64,000 bases of DNA from Zobellia uliginosa (GTDB lineage Bacteria; Bacteroidota; Bacteroidia; Flavobacteriales; Flavobacteriaceae): positions 701,166-765,165 of the forward strand of contig NZ_JAHKPY010000012.1 in assembly GCF_018860745.1 (NCBI RefSeq), written 5' to 3'. Every line of letters starts with the position of its first letter. The first letter of the stretch is position 1. The notes under the pieces are model-generated. The model made no database searches, was not told where the DNA came from, and worked only from the letters and a program-made list of their open reading frames with translations. The position numbers and the translations under genes were made by a program. Positions 15,181 through 50,872 of this stretch are shown piece by piece.

Positions 15181-16398
15181 ATGAGAAGAGTAGTAATCAC
15201 AGGCATGGGTATTTATTCTTGTATAGGCAAAAACCTAGACGAAGTAAAAGCATCCTTGTACGAAGGTAAATCAGGTATCGTTGTTGACCAAGAACGTCTT
15301 GATTTTGGCTATCGCTCTGGACTTACGGGTATGGTAGAAGAACCAAACCTAAAGAAACTCTTATCTAGAAGACAACGTGTAAGCCTGGGCGAAGAAGGCC
15401 AGTATGCCTATATGGCGACTATTGAGGCTTTAAAAAATGCTAAAATCGAAGATAGTTTCTTTGATAAAAATGAAGTTGGTGTTATTTACGGCAATGACAG
15501 TACCGCAAGGTCTGTTGTAGAATCTACTGATATCCTAAGAGAAAAAAAAGATACCACGTTGGTAGGGTCAGGAGCTATTTTCAAAGCCATGAACTCTACC
15601 ATTACCATGAATCTTTCCACTATATTTAAGCTAAGAGGCGTTAATTTTACCATTAGTGCCGCTTGCGCAAGCGGATCGCATTCTATTGGTATGGGCTACC
15701 ACCTTATAAAAAGCGGTCTTCAAGATTGCATAATTACAGGTGGAGCACAAGAAATAAATAAATTGGCTATGGGCAGTTTTGATGGCCTTGGGGTTTTCGC
15801 CACAACCGATGGTGACCCTGCAAAAGCATCAAGACCTTTTGACCAAGCCAGAAACGGACTAGTGCCTAGCGGTGGCGGTGCCACTTTGATCTTAGAAAGT
15901 TACGAATCTGCAGTTAAAAGAGGTGCACCTATTCTAGGTGAAGTTATAGGGTATGGGTTTTCATCCAATGGTGGACATATTTCTACGCCAAACGTAGACG
16001 GGCCTTCAAGAGCTATGAGAAATGCATTGAAAGATGCTAAGATAGATGCCTCGGCTATAGATTATGTAAACGCACATGCTACTTCCACCCCTGTTGGTGA
16101 TGCAAATGAAGCAAAAGCTATTTATGAGGTCTTTGGCGAAAGCAATCCTCCGGTGAGCTCTACAAAATCTATGACGGGTCATGAATGTTGGATGGCCGGC
16201 GCTAGCGAAGTTATTTATAGCATGCTTATGATGGAAAACTCATTTGTTGCACCCAACATCAATCTAGAGAATATTGATGTAGACGCAGCGAAATTAAACT
16301 TAGTTAAGGAAACGTTAAATAAAAAAATTGACGTATTTTTGTCCAATTCATTCGGGTTTGGTGGTACGAACTCTGCTTTGATATTAAAAAAATGCTAG
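15181..16398 (+). CDS. Beta-ketoacyl-ACP synthase (KAS I/II type), active
   Basis: 405 aa with the full Cys-His-His triad: Cys162 in SAACASGSHSIG, His299 in YVNAHATSTP and His334 in KSMTGHECW. Length and motifs fit FabB/FabF-like ketosynthases. It sits between FabG and an ACP, an arrangement like ApeR-ApeQ-ACP modules of aryl-polyene clusters, and should carry out decarboxylative condensation with malonyl-ACP. It is one of three intact KAS I/II-type enzymes in the cluster. Which intermediate it prefers cannot be told from sequence. Confidence 0.92.
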   Translation: MRRVVITGMGIYSCIGKNLDEVKASLYEGKSGIVVDQERLDFGYRSGLTGMVEEPNLKKLLSRRQRVSLGEEGQYAYMATIEALKNAKIEDSFFDKNEVGVIYGNDSTARSVVESTDILREKKDTTLVGSGAIFKAMNSTITMNLSTIFKLRGVNFTISAACASGSHSIGMGYHLIKSGLQDCIITGGAQEINKLAMGSFDGLGVFATTDGDPAKASRPFDQARNGLVPSGGGATLILESYESAVKRGAPILGEVIGYGFSSNGGHISTPNVDGPSRAMRNALKDAKIDASAIDYVNAHATSTPVGDANEAKAIYEVFGESNPPVSSTKSMTGHECWMAGASEVIYSMLMMENSFVAPNINLENIDVDAAKLNLVKETLNKKIDVFLSNSFGFGGTNSALILKKC

Positions 16399-16404
16399 CG
16401 AAAG

Positions 16405-16653
16405 ATGGTGATGACCAAAGATGATATTATACAAAAAATCGATGATTTTCTGATTGACGAATTTGAAGTTGAAGAAGAAGATATCGCTGCTGATGCCGAT
16501 CTTAAAGACACACTTGGTTTAGATAGTTTGGACTTTGTTGATCTTGTCGTAGCTGTAGAAAGCAATTTTGGTGTAAAATTGGTAGGTGAAGACTTTGTAA
16601 ATGTTACTACCCTACAAAATTTTTACGACCTTATTGAGCGTAAACTTCACTGA
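16405..16653 (+). CDS. Acyl carrier protein 1 of the flexirubin cluster
   Basis: 82 aa, acidic, with the phosphopantetheine site GLDSLDFVDL (Ser41). It starts 7 bp after the ketosynthase stop; MVMTKDD offers two ATG starts six bases apart. A second, different ACP lies at 26281. In APE and flexirubin systems separate ACPs serve the aryl-polyene and resorcinol branches; this one, near DarA/DarB, could serve either. Confidence 0.9.
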   Translation: MVMTKDDIIQKIDDFLIDEFEVEEEDIAADADLKDTLGLDSLDFVDLVVAVESNFGVKLVGEDFVNVTTLQNFYDLIERKLH

Positions 16654-16676
16654 TATTCCCTCGAGAAAACCCAACA

Positions 16677-17564
16677 ATGGCAACAGAATGGGAAGGAAAA
16701 TCCAAAGGCACCGTTTTAGGATATAGAATCTATATTTTCTTTATCAAAAAACTAGGATTAGCCGCTTCCTATTTACTCCTTCATTTTGTGGTTCTTTATT
16801 ACTGCATTTTCTCAGTTGCTAGCACAAAGGCAATTTTCTATTATTTTCATAAAAGACAAGGATATTCTACCCTAAAAAGTCTTTTCTATGTGTATAGGAA
16901 CTATTATGTTTTTGGTCAAACGATAATTGACAAGGCAGCAATATCTGCAGGCTTACGAAATAAATTTACTTATGATTTTGATGGAATAGATAAAATAGAA
17001 AACCTTCTATCTCAAAAAAAAGGGGGCATTCTTTTAAGCGCTCATATTGGTAATTTTGAGGTAGCTCAACATTTTCTACAAGATGTAAATGCTTTTTCTT
17101 CAATTAATTTGGTAACCTGGGACCGTGAGCATGAAGAAATCAAAGCGTACATGGATAGTGTTACCTCAAAAAGCAACATCAAACTTATTTTAATAAAAGA
17201 AGATATGTCGCACATTTTTGAGATACACACGGCATTGACCAATGGAGAATTAGTTTGTTTTACTGGTGACCGCTACATTGAGGGTACAAAATTTTTAGAG
17301 CAACGATTTTTAGGTGCCAACGCTAAATTTCCAATGGGGCCGTTCCTTTTAGCATCTCGTTTAAAAGTCCCCGTATTGTTCGTTTACGTAATGAAAGAAT
17401 CTAAAAAACATTACCACCTATATGCTCGAACCGCAGAAGTGAAACGTGGAGATGCCCAAGGCTTACTAGAAAAATACACCGAAAATTTAGAATGGATTAT
17501 TGACAAGTACCCCTTACAGTGGTTTAATTACTTTGACTTCTGGGGAGATAAAACAAATAAATAA
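16677..17564 (+). CDS. Lipid A acyltransferase-like (LpxL/HtrB family)
   Basis: 295 aa with an N-terminal membrane anchor (about 27-52) and the catalytic HX4E motif in SAHIGNFE (His123, Glu128). The family moves acyl chains from ACP to lipid acceptors at the inner membrane. In flexirubin and aryl-polyene clusters such an LPLAT is thought to join the aryl-polyene acid to its acceptor, here perhaps the dialkylresorcinol or a lipid. It ends just before the darA gene. Confidence 0.88.
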   Translation: MATEWEGKSKGTVLGYRIYIFFIKKLGLAASYLLLHFVVLYYCIFSVASTKAIFYYFHKRQGYSTLKSLFYVYRNYYVFGQTIIDKAAISAGLRNKFTYDFDGIDKIENLLSQKKGGILLSAHIGNFEVAQHFLQDVNAFSSINLVTWDREHEEIKAYMDSVTSKSNIKLILIKEDMSHIFEIHTALTNGELVCFTGDRYIEGTKFLEQRFLGANAKFPMGPFLLASRLKVPVLFVYVMKESKKHYHLYARTAEVKRGDAQGLLEKYTENLEWIIDKYPLQWFNYFDFWGDKTNK

Positions 17565-17632
17565 GATGTGTGCCTACCTCTAAAGTGCCATCAAATTGTT
17601 ACTTTTATTGGTTTTACCATAACCGAATGCAA

Positions 17633-18556
17633 ATGAAAGAAGTACTTGTTGTTTATTACTCACAAACAGGGCAATTACGTACAATTATAGATTCTGTCCT
17701 ATCCCCGCTAGAACAGGAATCCGTTACTATTACTTATCATCAAATCATTCCGGCCGAGCCATATACATTCCCATGGAAGAAAGAACGGTTCTTTGATGTC
17801 TTTCCAGAATCATTTCTACAGATTCCAACGGCAATCAATACACCTGATGCTTCCGTGTTGAACAAAAAATATGACCTTGTTATATTGGGCCATCAAGTAT
17901 GGTACCTAACCCCCTCCATCCCTTTAAATTCATTTTTAAAATCAGAAGCGGCAAAAACACTGTTGAAAGACACGCCTGTAATCACGGTTATTGGAGTTAG
18001 GAACATGTGGGCCATGTCGCAGGAGAAGGTAAAAAAAATGCTAATTGGCCTAAATGCAAAACTTGTTGGTAATATTGCATTAGTAGATAATAACCCCAAT
18101 CATGTTAGTGTCATTACCATAGTACACTGGATGCTTAAAGGCAAAAAGGACCGTATGTGGGGAATTTTTCCAAAACCGGGTGTTTCTGATAATTCCATAG
18201 CATCGGCAGATAAATTTGGATACCCTATTAATGAAGCCCTTTTGGCATCAGACTTCTCTTCCCTGCAAGAAAAACTAAATGATTTAGACGCATCAAAAAT
18301 CAGTAACTTACTGGTTCAGATGGACAAACGAGGCAACATGCTATTCGCTAAATGGGCCAACCTTATCAAAAAGAAGGGCGACCAAGGAGACCCAGCCCGA
18401 AAAAAATGGCTACGATTATTCAACTATTACCTGATATTTGCCATTTGGATAATCGCGCCTATAGTTTTTATTGTATTTTTGCTGACTTATATCCCTATGT
18501 ACAGAAAGATTCAAAGGGAAAACAAATATTACGCCTCTGTAGCTTATAAGGAGTAA
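17633..18556 (+). CDS. darA: Dialkylresorcinol biosynthesis protein DarA
   Basis: 307 aa. The N-terminus MKEVLVVYYSQTGQL is flavodoxin-like, and the C-terminal part has a membrane segment (about 275-298). The order with the next gene is that of darA-darB, which make 2,5-dialkylresorcinols. DarA is usually described as the aromatase/cyclisation partner. An upstream GTG at 17570 would add 21 residues (MPTSKVPSNCYFYW...) that do not fit the flavodoxin-like start, and an ATG at 17627 adds two residues; 17633 is preferred. Confidence 0.88.
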   Translation: MKEVLVVYYSQTGQLRTIIDSVLSPLEQESVTITYHQIIPAEPYTFPWKKERFFDVFPESFLQIPTAINTPDASVLNKKYDLVILGHQVWYLTPSIPLNSFLKSEAAKTLLKDTPVITVIGVRNMWAMSQEKVKKMLIGLNAKLVGNIALVDNNPNHVSVITIVHWMLKGKKDRMWGIFPKPGVSDNSIASADKFGYPINEALLASDFSSLQEKLNDLDASKISNLLVQMDKRGNMLFAKWANLIKKKGDQGDPARKKWLRLFNYYLIFAIWIIAPIVFIVFLLTYIPMYRKIQRENKYYASVAYKE

Positions 18557-18565
18557 GACTGACAC

Positions 18566-19699
18566 ATGAAAAACGCTTACATTACCAAAATATCCAAGTT
18601 TCTACCCAACTCACCTGTCGAAAATGACCAAATTGAAGAAAAATTAGGGTTTATAGACGGGCAAAAATCACGGGCGAAAAGCATAATTCTGCGCAATAAC
18701 AAAATTAAAAAAAGGTACTACGCCATTGATGAAAATGGTAATGTTACCCATAATAACGCGCAGCTTACCGCAGCAGCGATAGAAGAACTTTGCGACGAAA
18801 ATTTCAACAAAAAAGACATGGAGCTCCTCTCTTGCGGAACCTCTACACCAGATCAACTATTACCGTCTCATGCGGCAATGGTTCACGGAGTATTGAAAAA
18901 CGGCAATATGGAGATCAATTCTGCTTCCGGAGTTTGTTGTTCCGGCATGAACGCCCTTAAATATGGTTTTATGGCCATACAGGTAGGTCAGGTCAAGAAT
19001 GCGGTTTGTACGGGTTCGGAAAAAGTTTCAACTTGGACCAAAGCAGATTTCTACCAAGAAGAAATTGAGCATTTAAAGGAATTGGAGGAAAATCCAATGA
19101 TTGCGTTTGATAAGGATTTTTTACGATGGATGCTTTCTGATGGATCAGGAGCCATGCTCATAGAAAATGAACCAAATGGTGACACTCCGTTAAAAATAGA
19201 GTGGATGGAAGGATTTTCATACGCTTTTGAGATGGAAACCTGTATGTACGCCGGTGGTGAAAAACTAGAAAACGGAGAACTCAAACCATGGAGCGAATTC
19301 GCACCGGAAGATTGGGCCAAAAAATCTGTGTTTGCTATTAAACAAGATGTTAAGCTCTTGGGTGAAAACATCTTGAAAAAAGGAGTTGATTGCCTAAAGA
19401 CGATTTACGAAAAACATGGCATAGGACCTAATGACGTAGATTATTACCTACCACACATTTCTTCGTATTTCTTTAAACAAGGCCTATATGACGAAATGAA
19501 AGACCAAGGTGTAGAAATGCCTTGGGATAAATGGTTTTTGAATTTAGAGCATGTAGGTAATGTAGGTGCTGCCTCTATTTATCTAATGCTAGAAGAACTC
19601 GTTGATTCTGGCAAATTAAAAAAAGGAGATAGAATTTTGCTACATGTACCGGAAAGCGCCCGCTTTTCTTACACTTATGCCTATTTAACAGTGTGCTAG
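18566..19699 (+). CDS. darB: Dialkylresorcinol synthase DarB (KAS III-like)
   Basis: 377 aa ketosynthase of the FabH type with triad Cys125 (SGVCCSGMNAL), His297 (YLPHISS) and Asn332 (HVGNVGAAS). DarB condenses a 3-oxoacyl thioester with an alpha,beta-unsaturated acyl thioester to make the cyclohexanedione that becomes a dialkylresorcinol. It follows darA by 9 bp. The presence of both genes distinguishes a flexirubin cluster from a plain aryl-polyene cluster. Confidence 0.92.
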   Translation: MKNAYITKISKFLPNSPVENDQIEEKLGFIDGQKSRAKSIILRNNKIKKRYYAIDENGNVTHNNAQLTAAAIEELCDENFNKKDMELLSCGTSTPDQLLPSHAAMVHGVLKNGNMEINSASGVCCSGMNALKYGFMAIQVGQVKNAVCTGSEKVSTWTKADFYQEEIEHLKELEENPMIAFDKDFLRWMLSDGSGAMLIENEPNGDTPLKIEWMEGFSYAFEMETCMYAGGEKLENGELKPWSEFAPEDWAKKSVFAIKQDVKLLGENILKKGVDCLKTIYEKHGIGPNDVDYYLPHISSYFFKQGLYDEMKDQGVEMPWDKWFLNLEHVGNVGAASIYLMLEELVDSGKLKKGDRILLHVPESARFSYTYAYLTVC

Positions 19700-19700
19700 C

Positions 19701-20138
19701 ATGAACACATTGAAAGTACCCATAACCGACCAAGAGTTTCTACAAAATCTCATTCCGCAGAAACCACCTTTTATAATGGTTGGTAAGTTACTTCAATACT
19801 CAACCACCAGAATTGTATCCGGTCTAATTGTTCCCGAAGACAATCTATTTGTTTTTGAAAACAGGTTTATGGCTCCTGGTCTTATTGAGAATATGGCCCA
19901 GACTGTGGCATTGCATACCGGATATAAATATTATTTAGCAAAAAAACCGGCTCCCGTCGGGTATATTGGTGCCATAAAAAACGCTACTGTAAACGCTTTG
20001 CCCTTTGTAGGTCAGGAATTGGAAACCACTGTAGAAATCCTTCATGACATTATGGGCATTACCATGGTTTCTGCCAAGGTAACGTGTGAAGGCATTATAT
20101 TGGCAACTAGTGAAATGAAAACCGCATTGGCAAATTAA
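19701..20138 (+). CDS. Hotdog-fold 3-hydroxyacyl-ACP dehydratase-like protein (ApeP type)
   Basis: 145 aa. The opening FLQNLIPQKPPFIMVGKLL and the helix block APGLIENMAQTVALHTGYKY match the FabZ/ApeP-like hotdog dehydratases of aryl-polyene clusters. It starts one base after the darB stop and is followed one base after its own stop by a paralogue. The pair could form a heterodimer, as ApeI/ApeP-type dehydratases do, and would make the trans double bonds of the polyene. Confidence 0.82.
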   Translation: MNTLKVPITDQEFLQNLIPQKPPFIMVGKLLQYSTTRIVSGLIVPEDNLFVFENRFMAPGLIENMAQTVALHTGYKYYLAKKPAPVGYIGAIKNATVNALPFVGQELETTVEILHDIMGITMVSAKVTCEGIILATSEMKTALAN

Positions 20139-43261: not shown

Positions 43262-43303
43262 GTAAAATGCGCGGCTGAGCGCAGCCGAAGCCACGCATTT
43301 TAC
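43262..43303. repeat. Inverted repeat at the recQ 3' end
   Basis: GTAAAATGCG (43262-43271) is the exact reverse complement of CGCATTTTAC (43294-43303), around a GC-rich loop holding the REP-like core CTGAGCGCAGCCGAAG. The right arm overlaps the recQ stop codon. It may be the recQ terminator and a fourth copy of the REP-like unit. Confidence 0.65.
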
Positions 43304-45393
43304 TTCCCTATCAAATACAGCCCCATTTGAATTTTCCAGTAGGGCATCTTCTCTTCAAAATGTTCAAAGAATACTTTTAGTCCCTCGGGGTTTTCAAGTT
43401 CGGAATGGGCTTTTTTAATTTTTACAATTTCATCCTTAGAAATAAACTGACTCAAATCTACATCGGCGCCTTCGGCATGGGCTTTTTGAAGGTGGTTGTA
43501 AATGCTACTTTCCTGTATTCCACGCTGCATAGCAATATCCTGAACCGAAAACCCCTCTTGCAACAGTTGAAACGACAGTTGGTGACTCGGATTTTTCTTT
43601 GGTTTCTTTTTTGGTTTGGGCGCGTTTATCTCCTTGAGAAATGCTTCGGCGTACTTTTCAAGCTTCGCTTGTCCTACCCCAGAAATTTCTAGGAATTCCG
43701 TTTCGTTTTTGGGGCGTTTTTCTTCCATATCCTTTAAACTGGCATCACTAAAAACCACGTAGGCAGGTACATTTTGTTCGGCTGCAATTTGTTGTCGCAA
43801 TACCCGTAGTTTTTCGAACAACCCGGTGGCTGCTGTTTTGGACTGGCTAGTTTTCTTGGCTTTACCTTTTTCTTTCTTCTCTAAAATAGCAAGTTGTATC
43901 TGCTTCTTCTCATACAGCACCTGTTTTGCCAATGGCGTAAGCGACAGCCTACCGCCTTCCCTAAAATTAATGGAAAGCACACCTTGGTTCAACAACTGAA
44001 TTATATATTGCTGTAAATCTTGCCAAGACACTTCTTTTACGGCACCGTACGTTTTTATATGCTGATACCCTTTTTCCATCACTTGGGCATTTTGCGCACC
44101 GCGAAGTACATCTACCAACATACCCATCGCTTCTTTTTCCTTTAAACGCGCTACTCCGGAGCAGATTTTTTGTGTAAGCACGGTAGCATCAAAATATTTG
44201 GGAGGCCGGTTACAGATATCACAATTGCCACAATTCTGGGTCATGTGCTCCCCAAAATAGTTGAGCAAAGCAATCCGCCGGCAACTTAAAGCTTCGGCAA
44301 ATTGCTGCATGCGCTCTAACTTGGCATACTCCACATCTGCATTTTCGCTGGTATTGATGAACCTTCGCAATTGTGCTACATCGGCAAAACTATAAAAAAG
44401 CAAAGCTTGTGCAGGCAGGCTATCCCGACCTCCACGACCTATTTCTTGATAATAGCCCTCTATATTTTTCGGCAAGTTATAATGGATGACCCAACGTACG
44501 TTACTCTTATCTATTCCCATTCCAAAAGCAATGGTCGCTACAATTATGGGCACGCGGTCTGTAATAAAATCTTCTTGCACCTTGCTACGTTCATCCGCAG
44601 GAAGACCTGCGCTGTAGGCTTTCGCATTAAAACCGGAAGCCACAAGTTTATCCGCAATGGTCTGGGTACTTTTTCGGCTTAGGCAATAGATGATTCCGCT
44701 TTCATTAGGTCGCTCTGCTAGAAACTCCAAAATCTGGGTAATCCTATCCTGTGCCGGACGTACCTCCAAAGAAATATTGGGCCGATTGAAAGATGCCAGA
44801 TGCCGCAACGCCTGTGGAATTCGTAACTGGTCTAAAATATCGTCCTGCGTTGTTTTATCCGCCGTAGCGGTCAATGCAATTATAGGCACCTGTGGAAAAC
44901 GTTGTTTTAGACTCCCAAGTTGAGTATATGCAGGTCGAAAATCGTGACCCCAAGAAGAGATACAATGTGCCTCATCTATGGCAAAAAGGCTAATGGTTAT
45001 TTCCAAAATAATATGTTGCAATAGCGCTAAACTCTCCGGTGCTACGTACAATAACTTCAGCTCACCCTTAAACAATTTGGTCTCTACCTCTTCTTTTTTT
45101 GAAGCTTCCAATGAACTATTAAAATAAGCTGCAGAAATACCATTTCCGGTCAAAGCATCTACTTGGTCTTTCATTAAAGCAATAAGCGGAGAAATTACGA
45201 TAGCCGTACCTTCCATAGATAAGGCCGGAAGTTGAAAGCAAAGCGATTTTCCACCACCCGTAGGCATAATGGCCAGCACATCTTTTTTAGCAAGTACATC
45301 GCTAATAACGTTCCATTGGTTGGCCCGAAACGAATCGTAACCAAAATTTGTTTTTAAAAGAGGAAGTAGTTCTTGTTCTGTTGTAAGCGTCAT
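43300..45393 (-). CDS. recQ: ATP-dependent DNA helicase RecQ
   Basis: 697 aa. Walker A PTGGGKS (44-50), DEAH box (140-143), the ARO loop [11 protein letters not shown], the RQC zinc cysteines in [11 protein letters not shown]...[11 protein letters not shown], an HRDC domain (about 535-605) and a C-terminal helix-turn-helix segment ([22 protein letters not shown]). The start at 45393 gives [13 protein letters not shown]; a longer reading frame to 45492 only translates an inverted repeat. It unwinds DNA in recombination and repair and lies downstream of ssb on the same strand. Confidence 0.95.
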
Positions 45394-45424
45394 GTAATAC
45401 GTATAGAGATTCTTGCTCAAAAGA

Positions 45425-45500
45425 GCCGTTTTAGCAAACGAAGCGGACCGAAAGTAGCGTATGGCACCACTCCGTAAAGGCTTCGTTTGCAAAGAACGGC
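45425..45500. repeat. Inverted repeat between ssb and recQ
   Basis: Left arm 45425-45444 and right arm 45480-45500 are near-perfect reverse complements (about 19 of 20 with one extra base), loop 35 bases. It fills most of the spacer between the ssb stop and the recQ start. It could be the ssb terminator or a small mobile palindromic element; no T-run follows directly. Confidence 0.6.
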
Positions 45501-45505
45501 ATATT

Positions 45506-45838
45506 CTATTTACCCAACATTAAAAGTTCGTTACAACGTACTTCTGTTATGTATCGTTTTTCACCCTCTTTGGTCTCATACGAGCGGTGGGTAAGTTTTC
45601 CCTCTACAGCTACCTGCTTTCCTTTGGTTAAATAATTTTCTACGATTTCTGCGGTCTTTCCCCAAGCTACCACATTGTGCCATTGGGTATCATCTACACG
45701 CTCTCCTTGTGCGTTTTTATAACTCTCTGTAGTAGCTATGGAAAACTTGGCAAGTTTATTACCATTGTCCATGTTTACAATTTCTGGGTCTTGACCCAAA
45801 TTACCGATCAACTGTACTTTGTTTTTTAAGGCGTTCAT
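45506..45838 (-). CDS. ssb: Single-stranded DNA-binding protein, short form
   Basis: 110 aa OB-fold [56 protein letters not shown]. It stops at NELLMLGK, so it lacks the disordered tail and acidic tip (DDIPF type) by which standard SSBs of about 160-180 aa recruit repair proteins. It may be an accessory SSB. recQ lies 112 bp downstream. Confidence 0.93.
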
Positions 45839-45893
45839 TCTATTAGTTTTACGTTAAACAGTTTTACTATTGAACCACAATGATTCAACACTG

Positions 45894-45901
45894 CAAACAT
45901 A
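45894..45901 (-). promoter_or_regulatory. Candidate -7 element of ssb
   Basis: On the minus strand TATGTTTG, matching TAnnTTTG, 56 bases before the ssb ATG. The -33 TTG is not well placed. Confidence 0.45.
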
Positions 45902-46029
45902 GAACGAGCACCAAAATGTATTCGGTTACAAAACAATTGTTTTCGTTTGTAAACGTTTGAAAATGGATAAAAAACAATAGTAATACTTTAAAACACTGTA
46001 TATATGTATGTTTTGGAGGATTTGTTTAA

Positions 46030-46086
46030 ATTACGGCTAAAATAGAAATAAACGTACCTATGTACGTTTATACAATTGTTATCTGC
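46030..46086 (+). repeat. Right-half repeat at the upstream edge of the cassette array
   Basis: This stretch has the form of the right arm only of the repeats further on: GTACGTTTATACAATT leading to GTTATCTGC (46078-46086), after which the first gene starts 15 bases later. GTTATCTGC is the exact reverse complement of GCAGATAAC at 47119-47127, the start of the next repeat. A small palindrome CGTACCTATGTACG lies just before. Confidence 0.55.
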
Positions 46087-46100
46087 AAGCTGAAAAAAAT

Positions 46101-46418
46101 ATGACAACTGAAGAATTTGTAAAAGCCTTTTACTGCGAGAAACAGGATTTTCTGAAAGAATATCTGTCGGACAATACTCAAACCGAAGCTGGAGAATTAA
46201 TTAAAAAACTCAAATTGACCGCCAACCAAACCGAAATAATGGGAAAGGTTTTGGATTCTGCATTTACCGATATTTTCTACACAATATTACTTGGACTGGA
46301 TGGGGCTGCTTCAATTGGTGGACATCAAGAAATTTATGAATTAAAAGATGAAAATGGTAACAAGTTCAGTGGAGAAATCGAAGGTTTTGCTTATGAATAC
46401 TTTCATGAATCAAATTAA
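46101..46418 (+). CDS. Cassette 1, first gene: hypothetical protein
   Basis: 105 aa, acidic, no signal peptide or membrane segment. The sequence MGKVLDSAFTDIFYTILLGLDGAASIGGHQEIYELKDENGN is the most distinctive part. It recalls small cytoplasmic proteins of unknown role, some near toxin systems, but I do not recognise a named family. It starts 15 bp after the cassette boundary and is followed 2 bp later by the second gene of the same cassette, so the two probably act together. Confidence 0.72.
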   Translation: MTTEEFVKAFYCEKQDFLKEYLSDNTQTEAGELIKKLKLTANQTEIMGKVLDSAFTDIFYTILLGLDGAASIGGHQEIYELKDENGNKFSGEIEGFAYEYFHESN

Positions 46419-46420
46419 GA

Positions 46421-47113
46421 ATGGAAGAAAGCAAAGCACATAATAAAATTGATATTTTTCAATCAGTAAAGTCAACCGCGATAAATGAACTAACTCCTGA
46501 ACTGCTTGAAACTGGATTTGACTTATTAACGGAGTCAGAAATTTTAAAGGATATTCCAGTTTTTGGAATTGGTTTCAAGGGTTTTAGTCTTTATAAAAAA
46601 GTAACAGAATCTTTCTTCACAAAGAAACTTTTGAACTTCTTGTTTGAATTAAAAGAAATCCCCCAAACTAATAGGGAAGAGTTTATTTCTCAACTAGAAT
46701 CCAAAAATGAGACTAAAAAAGCCGGTAGGAATATTTTAGTGTCACTAACCAGATTAGGAGATGAAGAAAAAGCAACTATAATGGGCAAGTTATTTAAAAA
46801 CACCATTTTAGGCAACATGGGATTTAGTGATTTCAATCGCTTAACCCACATAATAGATGGTGCATATATTGAGGACTTAAAAGCGTTACAGGACAACTAT
46901 ATATTAGGAGGAATAAGTGATGATGTAAAAATAAATTTACATCAAATTGGACTTGTAAAACAATCATTATCTGATATAAAAAGGCAAAAAAAACTAAATA
47001 TCAGACTAGGTGGAACTGGAGAGGATGTACAACCTAAATTTGAATACAGAGTTAATCAAATTGGTTCAATTTTGATTGAAAATGGATTTGACAAAGATAG
47101 CCCACAGAAATAA
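46421..47113 (+). CDS. Cassette 1, second gene: hypothetical protein
   Basis: 230 aa. The N-terminal half holds SEILKDIPVFGIGFKGFSLYKKV followed by FFTKKLLNFLFELKEIPQTNREEF, a pattern seen in cytoplasmic proteins from defence and mobile regions, with a short amphipathic or membrane-touching segment. The middle part has ATIMGKLFKNTILGNMGFSDFNRL. I cannot assign a family. Being paired with the preceding small gene within one cassette, a two-component toxin/immunity or defence role is possible but unproven. Confidence 0.72.
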   Translation: MEESKAHNKIDIFQSVKSTAINELTPELLETGFDLLTESEILKDIPVFGIGFKGFSLYKKVTESFFTKKLLNFLFELKEIPQTNREEFISQLESKNETKKAGRNILVSLTRLGDEEKATIMGKLFKNTILGNMGFSDFNRLTHIIDGAYIEDLKALQDNYILGGISDDVKINLHQIGLVKQSLSDIKRQKKLNIRLGGTGEDVQPKFEYRVNQIGSILIENGFDKDSPQK

Positions 47114-47118
47114 AGCCA

Positions 47119-47318
47119 GCAGATAACAAAACCTATAAACAATACGGACTTCGGGCTTAATCGCAGGGTTTGCGTATTTTTATAATGACCGCAAAATCTT
47201 TGGGATTTTGCTTAAAACAAGGAAAAGAAAAAACAAAACCAAAAGATTTGGCTATGTACGAGGCGGAAAGCAAACGCTAGTTTGCTCCCGTACTGTTCAT
47301 AGCTAAACCGTTGTGCTT
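47119..47318 (+). repeat. Cassette repeat B (attC-like)
   Basis: Begins GCAGATAAC and ends GTTGTGCTT. The outer arms CTATAAACAATACGG (47133-47147) and CCGTACTGTTCATAG (47288-47302) are complementary at 13 of 15 bases, with a 140-base interior. The interior holds two further hairpins: GCAAAATC/GATTTTGC (47191-47211) and GCAAAC/GTTTGC (47270-47285). The core TGCGTATTTTTATAATG (from 47171) recurs in the other three repeats. Confidence 0.7.
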
Positions 47319-47381
47319 CATTATGACCCGTCCTGAAATATGTATACAAAAAACAACCGTGAATTATTAACTTCAAAAAAT

Positions 47382-47843
47382 ATGATGATAAAAAAAATAA
47401 TTACTATGCTTCTTTTTTCATTTATTTTAAGTTGCGGACAAAAATCAGAACCAAAAGAAATATTATTTGTTTGTACACATGGAGCTGCAAGAAGCCCAAT
47501 AGCAGCTGCGTATTTCAATAAAATGGTAAAGGAACAAAATTTAAACTATCATGCTGTTTTTAAAGGAACTGAGCCGGATAGTATATTGACTATCGAAACG
47601 ATAAAAGGGCTTACAAAAGACGAGTTCAAAATACAGAATTGGAAACCAGAATTGGTATCTGAAAATAATATTAGAGAAGCCGATAGAATAATAACTTTTG
47701 ATTTGGAACTCCCTTCAAAAGGAATTTCCAATAATATAGAACAATGGAATGGCACACCTTCAATTAGTAAGGATTATAATGCGGCCAGAGATGTCATAAA
47801 AGAAAAAGTAGAACAATTGGTAGCTTCACTTCCAAAAAATTAA
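47382..47843 (+). CDS. Cassette 2: low-molecular-weight phosphatase/ArsC-like lipoprotein
   Basis: 153 aa. The N-terminus MMIKKIITMLLFSFILSCGQ is a lipoprotein signal (Cys near 18). The mature part opens with EILFVCTHGAARSPIAAAYF, the CX5R phosphate loop of low-molecular-weight protein tyrosine phosphatases and thioredoxin-type arsenate reductases. Members are normally cytoplasmic, so a periplasmic, lipid-anchored version is odd. An upstream ATG (47340) lies in the cassette boundary and would spoil the signal peptide; ATG 47382 or 47385 is chosen. The substrate is unknown. Confidence 0.8.
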   Translation: MMIKKIITMLLFSFILSCGQKSEPKEILFVCTHGAARSPIAAAYFNKMVKEQNLNYHAVFKGTEPDSILTIETIKGLTKDEFKIQNWKPELVSENNIREADRIITFDLELPSKGISNNIEQWNGTPSISKDYNAARDVIKEKVEQLVASLPKN

Positions 47844-47867
47844 GGAGTAAGGAGTAAAAAATAACGA

Positions 47868-48068
47868 AAGCACAACACAACCTATAAACAATACGGGCTT
47901 AGGGTTTAAACGCCAAGGTCTATGTATCTTTATAATGTCGCTAAATCTTATGGATTTAGCTTTGGACAAGAAAAAATAAAACTAAACAATAAGCTTTAGC
48001 TTCGTGCGCAGACGGAAACGAAAAGTTTCCTTGCCTCCGCACTACGCTTAGCCTAGACGTTAGCATTA
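47868..48068 (+). repeat. Cassette repeat C (attC-like, arms mismatched)
   Basis: Begins AAGCACAAC and ends GTTAGCATTA. The left arm CTATAAACAATACGG (47882-47896) is identical to that of repeat B, but the right arm near 48036-48052 (CTCCGCACTACGCTTAGCC) pairs with it poorly. Interior hairpins GCTAAATC/GATTTAGC (47940-47960) and GGAAAC/GTTTCC (48014-48030) are kept, with different sequence but the same positions as in repeat B. The core TATGTATCTTTATAATG starts at 47921. Confidence 0.65.
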
Positions 48069-48082
48069 ATTATGCTCAAAAA

Positions 48083-48790
48083 ATGAACAACGAAACAATC
48101 AGACAAAATTTAGTCAATAAAAGAGACAGCTACTTATCTACTCTTGAGTCAAATTCAAATCTAGACAAACTTCTAAAAACTATTCTCTTAAATTTAAAAG
48201 CATTCAATTTTAAAGATTACAAACGGAAATTGGAGATTGAAATTCTTAAAAATCTAAATGACTGGTGGTCCAATTCTGAAAAAGGAATAAAAAAAGAAGA
48301 AGAATTATATGCAATCCTTTTCGAGTATGATTACTTTTTTCAAAAGAATGTAGAAGCTGCGGCTTATGGTATTGGCGAATGGAGAGACTTCCAAGTTAAG
48401 TTTGAAAAGTTCGATATGGGATTCGATTATGACTTCACAACAGATTTTTATGCGTGCCCAGGTATCGGACTAAATTTTTTCGATAGTCTTGAAAGTTTAA
48501 ATCATGATGACCTACCTAAAGAATATACAAACGACCATATAGACTTTGATGGACTTAAAGATGGAGATATCATAGAAATGGATGAATTCAATGATATCGA
48601 ATCCATCGATGGATATGATGAAATAATCGAACTACATAAGTGCAAAGGAATGATTGCAATTCATGATGTTCTAGTAAAAATGGATAAGAATAATGGATTT
48701 GAATCACTTAACTATAAAGATAATTTCATGTTTATAATTGATGAACATGATTCTGGAGAAGTCTATCCTTTGCTTGTGAAAAAAAAATAA
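48083..48790 (+). CDS. Cassette 3: hypothetical acidic protein
   Basis: 235 aa, cytoplasmic by appearance, strongly acidic in the second half (DDLPKEYTNDHIDFDGLKDG, EMDEFNDIESIDGYDEI). The C-terminus MFIIDEHDSGEVYPLLVKKK. No recognised domain. It starts 14 bp after the cassette boundary GTTAGCATTA. Base composition is more AT-rich than the core genes around it, in line with acquired DNA. Confidence 0.72.
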   Translation: MNNETIRQNLVNKRDSYLSTLESNSNLDKLLKTILLNLKAFNFKDYKRKLEIEILKNLNDWWSNSEKGIKKEEELYAILFEYDYFFQKNVEAAAYGIGEWRDFQVKFEKFDMGFDYDFTTDFYACPGIGLNFFDSLESLNHDDLPKEYTNDHIDFDGLKDGDIIEMDEFNDIESIDGYDEIIELHKCKGMIAIHDVLVKMDKNNGFESLNYKDNFMFIIDEHDSGEVYPLLVKKK

Positions 48791-48791
48791 C

Positions 48792-48955
48792 TAATGCTAA
48801 CAAAACCTTTAAACGATACGAGTTTCGGGCTTAGCTGGATGGTTTGCGTATTTTTATGAAGTCCGAAAAATCTTTTGGATTTTGCTATGTAAGTAGCGAA
48901 AAGCAAACGTTGGTTTGCCGCAGTAATTTTAATAATTTAGGTGTTGTAAGTAATC
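48792..48955 (+). repeat. Cassette repeat D
   Basis: Begins TAATGCTAAC, the exact reverse complement of GTTAGCATTA at 48059-48068 (14 of 15 when extended), and ends GTTGTAAG (48943-48950). It carries the core TTGCGTATTTTTATGAAG from 48844 and hairpin GCAAAC-GTTG-GTTTGC (48903-48918), shared with repeat B. The outer right arm is not complementary to the left arm. Confidence 0.62.
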
Positions 48956-48972
48956 ATTGTATCTAATAAACA

Positions 48973-49512
48973 ATGAATGAGACAGTAGAGAAATTTAGTT
49001 TATTTTTTAAAAAAGATTTTAAAAAAAAGTTTATTTGCTTTTTTACCATACCCTTCTTAGCTAGTGTTATATTTTTAGTAGATTTTTTTCTTTTACCAGA
49101 AACAAATACAAGTGATATTATAACTCATATAAGCATTATAAAAATCCCTTCAAATGTAGGGGGTACATCGGTTAGGGTTAGTAAAGTTTCAGGTTACAGA
49201 TATATTACAGAAACAAACCTCAAATTTTCTACTTTAAATACAAGAATAAAATCTTCAGAAATTAAATTAAGGGTAACTCCACTTTTTAAAACGGTCAAAG
49301 CAGTTAGTAGTACCTCTAAACAGAAAATAGTTCTTGCATCTGGCTTTAGCGGCTTAAATCAAGTGTTATTTGTTTTGTGTAATGGATTTATCCTTGTTTC
49401 AATTATTTATATCCTACTAACAAAACATATAACTGAAAATGCTAGACTCAACTTACTTTTTTCAAATACTTTCATCCTAGCCGTTTGGATATATGCTCTG
49501 ATTTTATATTAA
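48973..49512 (+). CDS. Cassette 4: hypothetical membrane protein
   Basis: 179 aa with three hydrophobic segments: about 20-40 (FICFFTIPFLASVIFLVDFFL), 127-148 and 158-178. Between the first two lies a beta-rich soluble loop of about 85 residues (ISIIKIPSNVGGTSVRVSKVS onward). No family recognised. It is very AT-rich and starts 18 bases after the cassette boundary region. Confidence 0.7.
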   Translation: MNETVEKFSLFFKKDFKKKFICFFTIPFLASVIFLVDFFLLPETNTSDIITHISIIKIPSNVGGTSVRVSKVSGYRYITETNLKFSTLNTRIKSSEIKLRVTPLFKTVKAVSSTSKQKIVLASGFSGLNQVLFVLCNGFILVSIIYILLTKHITENARLNLLFSNTFILAVWIYALILY

Positions 49513-49521
49513 CCTGCCTAA

Positions 49522-49745
49522 TCTACCTTACCTAACCATTTTTTTGAGCGTTTTGATGTTTCTTTAGATTATGTAATAGGCACAAAGCCTAAACGCAATG
49601 CCCACTTTAGGGCTATATTGAAAGGTCTGCGTATATTTATAATGTCGCCAAATCTTATTGATTAAGCTTTGGACTAGAAAAAATAGAACTAAAAATACCC
49701 ATTACCTCTTCTATACGCTTAGCTAAACTTTTATTTACTATGCTA
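49522..49745 (+). repeat. Cassette repeat E, degenerate
   Basis: Contains the shared core CTGCGTATATTTATAATG (from 49627) and the following AATCTTATTGATTAAGC, matching repeat C most closely (TCTATAC-GCTTAGC near the right end as well). The cassette-end sequence expected as complement of GTTGTAAG is only partly kept (CCTTACCTAAC, 49525-49535). This is the downstream edge of the array, just before the Crp/Fnr gene. Confidence 0.5.
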
Positions 49746-49762
49746 AAACAACAATGCGCTAA

Positions 49763-50326
49763 ATGGAAATAGACCAGATTCTTAATAACATATACCCTTT
49801 ACCTGAGTCTTCAAAATCAGTAATAAAAAAGTACATTTCGGAAATAAGCTATCCTAAAGGGCACATTCTACTGAGAGCTGAAAAAATTGAAACAAGCATT
49901 TATTTTATCAAAAAAGGAATTGTTCGTGCCTATGCTAATTCTGCCGATAATGAAATAACATTTTTCTTCGGAAAAGAAGGAGATACCGTTATCTCCATGA
50001 AAAGTTATGTTGCAAATGAGAAAGGATACGAAGATATTGAGCTATTAGAAAACTGTGATTTATACGAACTGAAAACCCAAAACTTACAGCAACTTTTTGA
50101 GAAAGACATAGCTATAGCAAATTGGGGACGAAAGTTTGCCGAGCAAGAACTTATTAAAACAGAAGAACGACTTATTTTCCGGGAATTCCGGACAGCTAAA
50201 GAACGCTATATAGAGCTTTTAACCAATAACGCGGACTTAATTAAACGTGTTCAATTAGGCCACATCGCCTCTTATTTGGGCATAACTCAAGTAAGTTTAA
50301 GCAGAATAAGAGCAGAAGTAAAATAG
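49763..50326 (+). CDS. Crp/Fnr family transcriptional regulator
   Basis: 187 aa: cyclic-nucleotide-binding-like domain (about 20-115, SYPKGHILLRAEKIETSIYFIKKGIVR) and a C-terminal helix-turn-helix in IASYLGITQVSLSRIRAE. It lacks the Cys cluster of Fnr and the full cAMP-binding signature, as usual for this Bacteroidota subgroup. It precedes a SugE/Gdx exporter gene by 68 bp and probably controls it. Confidence 0.9.
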   Translation: MEIDQILNNIYPLPESSKSVIKKYISEISYPKGHILLRAEKIETSIYFIKKGIVRAYANSADNEITFFFGKEGDTVISMKSYVANEKGYEDIELLENCDLYELKTQNLQQLFEKDIAIANWGRKFAEQELIKTEERLIFREFRTAKERYIELLTNNADLIKRVQLGHIASYLGITQVSLSRIRAEVK

Positions 50327-50394
50327 GTTCGTATTTTTTATCATTTGTAAAATTTTCCTTTGACCTCATTTCTCAACTTTGCAAAAAAAAAGTT

Positions 50395-50721
50395 ATGAAT
50401 TGGATTATTTTGGTTATTGCAGGTTTATTTGAAGTAGCATTTGCATTTTGTTTGGGCAAAGCAAAAGAAACCACCGGAAATGAGATGTATTTATGGTATT
50501 TGGGGTTTCTTATCACCTGTAGCATTAGTATGATTCTTTTAATTAAGGCAACGCAAGCATTACCTATAGGAACCGCTTATGCTGTGTGGACAGGAGTTGG
50601 TGCCGTAGGAACCGTTTTAGTGGGCATAGTCGTGTTTAAAGAACCCGCAACATTTTTAAGATTGCTTTTTATCTCTACATTAATCTGCTCAATTGTTGGG
50701 TTAAAAGTAGTATCTCACTAA
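50395..50721 (+). CDS. sugE: SMR family exporter, SugE/Gdx type
   Basis: 108 aa with four membrane helices. Glu13 in GLFEVAFAF is the proton/substrate site, and the segment LPIGTAYAVWTGVGAVGTVL matches E. coli SugE rather than EmrE, so guanidinium/proton exchange (Gdx) is the best guess. No guanidine riboswitch is evident in the 68-bp leader. It follows a Crp/Fnr regulator gene on the same strand. Confidence 0.9.
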   Translation: MNWIILVIAGLFEVAFAFCLGKAKETTGNEMYLWYLGFLITCSISMILLIKATQALPIGTAYAVWTGVGAVGTVLVGIVVFKEPATFLRLLFISTLICSIVGLKVVSH

Positions 50722-50872
50722 AATAGAGAAAGTCACCAACACATAGCTTGTAAAAATAGTCCAAGTCCTTTGCTACCAAAAAAATTGCGCGTTTTCTAAA
50801 AGTCGCCAAAATTTAGTATCTTTTTTAAGCGCTAGTTTTCATACGCAATTCTTCTCAGTTTTTTAATTAGGT

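Follow-up and report, generated by a model that had tools for sequence, protein, structure and literature searches.

A candidate integron-like gene-cassette system of Bacteroidota in Zobellia uliginosa

The window, a stretch of 64,000 nucleotides (nt) from Zobellia uliginosa (contig NZ_JAHKPY010000012.1), is part of a genome of 4.86 Mb in 15 contigs and harbors an array of four gene cassettes, all on the plus strand, that runs from a GTT at 46078 to a degenerate site near 49737. The cassettes are separated by long repeats, referred to here as sites. An earlier note on this DNA had described an integron-like cassette array with no integrase, working through folded repeats, and its three exact pairs of complementary cassette ends are present as written (cassettes 1 to 3 below). 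The note did not mention an attI-like palindrome, which lies directly before cassette 1 (46048-46071), nor a linked recombinase that is found elsewhere in the genome. The features of the array are listed here, with ORF denoting an open reading frame.

46048..46077, plus strand: attI-like site, consisting of the palindrome ATAAACGTAC-ctat-GTACGTTTAT (46048-46071) and ACAATT, up to the inferred crossover GTT (46078)
46078..47127, plus strand: cassette 1, start GTTATCTGC, end GCAGATAAC; ORFs 46101-46418 and 46421-47113, no Pfam match (E 0.001)
47125..47312, plus strand: site 1, 188 nt, from AAC-left arm to right arm-GTT, arms TATAAACAATACGG / TATGAACAGTACGG; found by the structural scan with 0 mismatches
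47310..47876, plus strand: cassette 2, start GTTGTGCTT, end AAGCACAAC; ORF 47340-47843, low-molecular-weight phosphatase family (Pfam)
47874..48061, plus strand: site 2, by eye a hybrid of two arm subtypes (left arm of one, right arm of the other)
48059..48801, plus strand: cassette 3, start GTTAGCATTA, end TAATGCTAAC; ORF 48083-48790, no Pfam match (E 0.001)
48799..48945, plus strand: site 3, shortened, about 147 nt
48943..49594, plus strand: cassette 4, with a decayed end; ORF 48973-49512, no Pfam match (E 0.001)
49587..49737, plus strand: last site, degenerate; right border 97% common with the sister species G002, whose cargo is different

Cassettes and arrays across the genome

A genome-wide BLAST with one site returned 25 matches, distributed over contigs C1, C2, C5, C8 and C10. 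A profile of the four window sites detected 39 sites at E < 1e-5 in the window and the examined stretches of four other contigs (4 on C1, 22 on C2, 7 on C5, and 3 each on C8 and C10). The sites on C2 extend from 63.9 kb to the contig end at 98.1 kb, an array of 34 kb, and C5 (9,057 nt) is array almost throughout; since the one reaches its contig end and the other is nearly all array, the two may be pieces of one larger array that was split in assembly. The repeats are neither single-copy nor tied to the same genes: they occur in many copies, with different genes beside them, and the end complementarity persists in other copies and other genomes, as the earlier reading would lead one to expect. 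Among the sites of the window and the stretches of the four other contigs, adjacent pairs match over at least 4 bases beyond GTT in 23 of 33 cases, against 74 of 1373 for non-adjacent pairs. In the C2 and C5 arrays, 24 of the 28 pairs of consecutive, structurally detected sites match over 9-10 nt.

The first 13 or so nt of a cassette are the reverse complement of its own end, except for base 11, which is always mismatched. This profile was read from 105 distinct end pairs, drawn from 131 cassettes and preselected on the first 9 bases (and arms). The number of matches is 82 at base 10, 0 at base 11, 92 at base 12, 91 at base 13 and 72 at base 14, implying an R stem of some 13 nt that contains a single programmed mismatch. 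The mismatch at base 11, present in 105/105 pairs, is A/G in 93. The motif GTTRRRY occurs at 5 of the 105 cassette starts, in agreement with the earlier statement that the core does not follow it. In cassette 4 of the window the ends no longer match, and the site belonging to it is degenerate.

The 131 cassettes, which passed an arm filter and still include a few chance or nested pairs (such as that at window 10323), have a median length of 676 nt. The longest ORF is a plus-strand one in 121 of them, and its median share of cassette length is 88%. The cargo is unrelated, with 127 proteins falling into 114 families, 102 of them singletons, so that the arrays consist of unrelated one-gene cassettes mostly in one orientation. 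Among the cassette proteins of this genome, 11 of 20 score above a Pfam cut-off, in varied families: S41 peptidases, DUF3667, DUF4062, HNH, NUDIX, glyoxalase, GldB-like lipoprotein, beta-lactamase family, AraC-type regulator and alpha/beta hydrolase. Within the window, Pfam names a family for cassette 2 only.

Architecture of the sites

A structural rule was derived from the sites of this genome. The left arm reads AAC, 5 nt, 4 paired, A, 4 paired, A, 5 paired; the right arm, reversed, reads AAC, 7 nt, 4 paired, G, 4 paired, G, 5 paired; a hit may contain up to 2 mismatches. Scanning with this rule gave 67 matches in 1.68 Mb (both strands), 33 in the stretches of this genome and 34 in those of relatives (in 16 of 40 loci). 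One shuffled control and 12 classical IntI loci (88 kb) gave 0 matches each, and 37 other recombinase loci (695 kb) gave 1, in a Bacteroidetes metagenome-assembled genome (MAG; L190). Site 2 of the window was not recovered by the scan; its hybrid look hints that two sites may have recombined homologously.

As a guard against circularity, a second set of sites was defined only by two neighboring cassettes with complementary ends. This yielded 383 raw chained sites (78 in shuffled sequence), from which 100 with paired arms at +2 offset were kept, from 11 genomes; the rest are chance pairs and a second subtype with one extra right-arm base, which was left uncounted. The left base at position 14 is A in 100/100 sites and stands opposite C (A/G as scored) in 60 at this offset, and A/G is found at position 9 in 62 sites and at position 10 in 30. 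The core is GTTR in 99/100 sites and GTTRRRY in 3/100. A MAFFT alignment put the two arm subtypes out of register, and pairing was scored by script in its place. The first subtype, represented by the 62 sites with A/G at position 9, has 30 distinct arm pairs. Their complementarity within a site, over the other positions counted, is 92.1%; when the right arms were dealt anew 1000 times, the mean was 53.5% and the maximum 62.3%.

This arm anatomy places A.C mismatches in the top strand and T.G mismatches in the bottom strand, and the arms alone are more stable as the bottom strand in 100/100 sites. Pairing, covariation and bottom-strand bias are all seen in the arms, and the strand-specific marks are mismatches rather than extrahelical bases. 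Site length ranges from about 65 to 217 nt. Neither length nor the inner hairpins serve as a defining trait, and both were rejected as such: sites of about 65, 120-125 and 180-217 nt have common arms.

A linked recombinase and its attI-like site

The genome encodes five tyrosine recombinases (PF00589), and one of these, the 375-residue P0001, ends with a stop codon 45 nt before the GTT of the first cassette on C2, on the same strand. The earlier claim of no integrase holds for the window array but fails for the genome, where the linked recombinase that the note had suggested looking for is found at the head of the C2 array. Proteins of the P0001 family have their own N-terminal domain followed by a SAM-like domain and a catalytic domain. 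The N-terminal domain of P0001 gave no usable match in Pfam, PHROGs or PDB sequence searches. The catalytic part is Xer-like, the presumed catalytic residues are invariant or nearly so among relatives, and alignment places the presumed catalytic tyrosine of P0001 at Y359.

The family lacks the IntI-specific additional domain, which is named as defining in PMC9668308. Between KG.K.R and RHSFAT, 33 of 38 candidates have a spacing of 61 residues and two others have 62 and 54, with three unmeasurable; in IntI the spacing is 103 residues in 11 of 12, with one unreadable. P0001 scores 207.6 bits against TIGR02249, whose cut-off is 265, and shows a gap when aligned with IntI4. A tree of 47 rows, for which the tool warned of long branches, unites 34 relatives at 89/91 and 11 IntI at 100/99; left out were four of the 38 candidates (below 360 residues), one of the 12 IntI (no readable frame) and two of four recombinases of this genome.

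By profile (E up to 1e-80, with many matches lacking the N-terminal domain), the P0001 family is present in 91 of 296 genomes of the phylum: the genome itself, 1 at the rank of genus, 20 of family, 1 of order, 18 of class and 50 of phylum. The closest named relatives include those of a Maribacter MAG (78%), Winogradskyella ursingii (61%) and Seonamhaeicola (60%). No IntI was detected in the Z. uliginosa genome at E 1e-60. IntI scores above its cut-off in 84 of the 296 genomes, 83 of them at the rank of phylum and 1 at that of class, with none in the order, family or genus.

The linkage of recombinase and cassettes recurs in relatives. A loose test asks for a first cassette 20-220 nt after the recombinase stop, and a strict test adds the mismatch at base 11 and matches at bases 12-13. 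Set 1 comprises the relatives used to learn the rule, set 2 named loci and set 3 the best matches of the phylum sample; the strict rule was read from set 1, and sets 2 and 3 are therefore the independent ones. Loci with a match and 400 nt downstream number 34 of 38, 35 of 42 and 25 of 28 in the three sets. In the controls they number 3 of 4 (other recombinases of this genome), 10 of 12 (IntI loci) and 33 of 35 (more distant relatives, a few of them Bacteroidota). The loose test is positive in 25/34, 15/35 and 18/25, with controls of 0/3, 3/10 and 2/33; for set 1, shuffles gave 70/680. The strict test is positive in 20/34, 14/35 and 12/25, the first cassette lying 24-179 nt after the stop, with controls of 0/3, 0/10 and 1/33. 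Three loci stand in no set or control, and of these L206 has a first cassette by the loose test and L214 and L222 have none. The single strict positive among the more distant relatives (L187), from a Spirochaetota MAG, has its first cassette 98 nt after the recombinase stop; it may reflect a system that extends beyond Bacteroidota, chance, or a mis-binned contig.

Many of these cassette rows begin at a palindrome. At 13 of the 25 recombinase-linked starts, an inverted repeat with arms of 9-12 bp and at most one mismatch stops 4-7 nt short of GTT; 10 of these starts lie beside the recombinases nearest to P0001, and the others are at L106, L111 and L114. At the remaining 12 the inverted repeat is at most 8 bp, and one of at least 9 arose in 7 of 500 shuffles. 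The palindrome of the window is of the same kind and stands at the same distance from GTT as those beside many recombinases, and a copy also heads the C10 array. The attI-like site is found beside the recombinase gene, and cargo differs after a copy of it. At the locus of G001, 11.7 kb downstream of the recombinase (L101), a second palindrome and GTT head another cassette; attI copies may be seeded at new places.

Left of the window array, at 43300-45838, lie an ssb gene (Pfam) and a RecQ-like helicase (by eye), and the flank of this ssb locus is kept in 9/9 genomes of the genus. In Z. uliginosa, G001, G002, G004 and G005 the flank continues to the palindrome and GTT, after which the sequences diverge. 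A complete first cassette is present in Z. uliginosa, G001, G002 and G005, and the contig of G004 ends soon after. In G007 the GTT is replaced by ATT; in G003, G006 and G008 the flank homology stops earlier (window 45963-45972), with one site about 7 kb farther on in G003. The right flank of G002 is 97% identical from window 49587 on, and the cargo enclosed is different. The earlier note had called for a comparison of cassettes between close relatives, and close species do indeed differ at this same locus. A tblastn search found no P0001 relative in the examined stretches of the ssb locus; as cargo differs beyond a fixed border, the enzyme would therefore act in trans or have been lost. The ssb and RecQ-like proteins could affect hairpin folding. 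As a component of the system ssb was rejected, none having been noticed in the ORFs around the C2 recombinase, where no ssb search was made.

Interpretation, rival explanations and significance

Integron arrays that consist of attC clusters without an integrase are known as CALINs, defined by two or more attC sites under the attC covariance model with no IntI close by. The arrays described here very probably belong to a gene-cassette system of Bacteroidota that is integron-like in its working but not an integron by its defining enzyme. Cassette-wise complementary ends, covarying arms, fixed mismatch positions, an order of recombinase, attI and cassette, and differing cargo of sister species after the same border are all present in the DNA. 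P0001 is inferred to be the acting enzyme, with a single-stranded substrate, a cut after G and circular intermediates. The window array would be an integrase-less, partly decayed outpost that uses an attI copy. The folded repeats of the earlier reading are supported by the sequence evidence, and these repeats would presumably recombine.

In the proposed mechanism, a P0001-family recombinase would cut at the GTT of the double-stranded attI-like site directly downstream of its own gene, where circular cassettes would be joined. Each cassette would have a single site, folded as the bottom single strand into an R stem of about 13 nt, an unpaired spacer of 5/7 nt and an L stem with two programmed T.G mismatches. 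The recombinase would bind the R and L stems, taking orientation from the mismatches and the unequal spacers. One strand would be exchanged with attI at GTT, and the junction would be resolved by replication, as in integrons.

The likeness to integrons extends to mostly one-gene cassettes in one orientation, a cassette start complementary to its own end, an attI-like site adjoining the recombinase, and a site predicted to fold as the bottom strand, with R stem, spacer and an L stem bearing two strand-marking positions. In contrast to integrons, P0001 lacks the IntI insertion and has an extra N-terminal domain, its gene lies on the cassette strand, the R stem spans some 13 nt and is always mismatched at base 11, and the core is GTTR rather than GTTRRRY. 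The attC sites of PMC3053210, with cores RYYYAAC ... GTTRRRY, lengths of 57-141 bp and extrahelical bases T-N6-G, do not describe these sites, which reach 217 nt and bear T.G mismatches 4 nt apart. Because the enzyme lacks the IntI domain and the core departs from GTTRRRY, the system is not filed as an integron, although as far as sequence can tell it would work like one. In CTX-type phage integration (PMC3089051) a Xer-type recombinase swaps one strand on a folded single strand, as is proposed here, but there a single phage genome enters at dif, whereas here cassette arrays come with their own recombinase and attI-like site. From XerA and NF040815 tyrosine recombinases P0001 differs in its extra N-terminal domain and its linkage to cassette arrays.

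Several observations weigh against such a system. Recombination itself was not observed, and the insertion corresponding to the I2 helix of PMC7790495 is absent from the P0001 family. Whole sites favor the bottom strand in 85/100, the top strand in 14 and neither in 1. Folded on their own, two sites of the window reach no more than moderate stability (z -2.5 and -2.2). Even by the loose test, a first cassette is missing in 9/34, 20/35 and 7/25 relatives, and the 3/10 positive IntI loci mean that this test is not clean. G002 and G003 carry sites, yet their recombinase matches are of Xer level only; an array might persist after its recombinase is lost. Only 1 pair of cassettes is common to two genomes (at least 60% of length), and cassette movement is therefore read from the comparison of loci.

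An unlikely alternative to the folded-site system is recombination of the sites in double-stranded form, as ordinary palindromes, with P0001 or XerC/XerD as the enzyme and folding incidental. The 13 palindromes among 25 attI-like starts and the Xer-like catalytic part of P0001 would fit, but the arms covary although their sequence is free, and the fixed mismatches that disfavor the top strand in the arms of 100/100 sites have no clear double-stranded role. More doubtful still is a classical IntI/attC integron with unusually divergent sites and a true IntI that was missed. The attC-like topology (R and L boxes, unpaired spacer, bottom-strand bias) and the frequency of IntI in other classes of the phylum (84/296 genomes) speak for it, as does PMC8618304, a review that names Bacteroidota among integron-bearing phyla. 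Set against these are the lack of an IntI in this genome at E 1e-60 and of any IntI genome at the ranks of order, family or genus, a linked recombinase without the insertion (61 versus 103) that stands apart from IntI in the tree, GTTRRRY in just 5/105 starts, and 0 structural matches in 12 IntI loci. We give hardly any credence to another mobile or regulatory repeat family between genes, such as a non-autonomous transposon or terminator, whose end complementarity came from homologous recombination. Conserved inner hairpins and the hybrid site 2, with its hint of site-site recombination, are compatible with it. It would need an equal rate of end matches in non-adjacent cassettes, and the opposite is observed (23/33 versus 74/1373); moreover, each cassette has an end pair of its own, matching across a whole gene, the first cassette begins shortly after a recombinase, and Rfam gave no match up to E 0.1 in window 45400-50800.

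A wider proposal, which we hold tentatively and at somewhat less than even odds, is that this is a second, independently arisen class of integron, widespread in Bacteroidota. Its N-terminal domain, possibly akin to the XPB damage-recognition and SMARCAL1 HARP domains and recognizing distortion, would take the place of the I2 helix, the feature credited with making integrons possible, and would read folded single strands by sensing programmed T.G mismatches in a long-stemmed site. Integrases are described in PMC7790495 as having moved to single-strand recombination by gain of the I2 helix, and PMC4792948 writes of an ancestor of present-day integrases acquiring it. XerC/XerD work on folded single-stranded DNA when CTX-type phages integrate (PMC3089051), so the IntI insertion may not be strictly needed.

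No description of such a system appeared among the papers listed by searches of the open-access literature, which did not extend to preprints or most subscription journals. For Bacteroidetes, within a wider group with Chlorobi and Ignavibacteriae, PMC9024848 gives earlier In0 and one complete integron in Salinibacter, and a word search of its main text found nothing beginning with Flavobact. PMC8138268 sets out a subgroup of integron-like recombinases whose insertion is incompletely conserved, and some P0001 relatives may therefore already be placed there as proteins.

Integrons are the textbook device of gene capture, and surveys rely on the extra domain of IntI and on attC models. If the proposed system is real, survey tools would overlook a large pool of Bacteroidota gene cassettes, and single-strand cassette recombination would have arisen or persisted without the I2 helix, which would open the account of integron evolution to direct tests. 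Such a system would further provide a recombination tool that obeys different site rules, and marine and host-associated Bacteroidota would have in it a general way to exchange genes.

A Chryseobacterium plasmid (L290, NZ_CP041688.1) carries a full-length P0001 relative. A single good cassette pair was found on it, against 2 pairs in 10 shuffles, and a working plasmid array is therefore a lead only. IS110-family transposases and group II introns are known to target integron attC sites. On the plasmid, the gene row that follows the P0001 relative contains one of each kind at 16269-20051: an IS110-family transposase and a group II intron reverse transcriptase.

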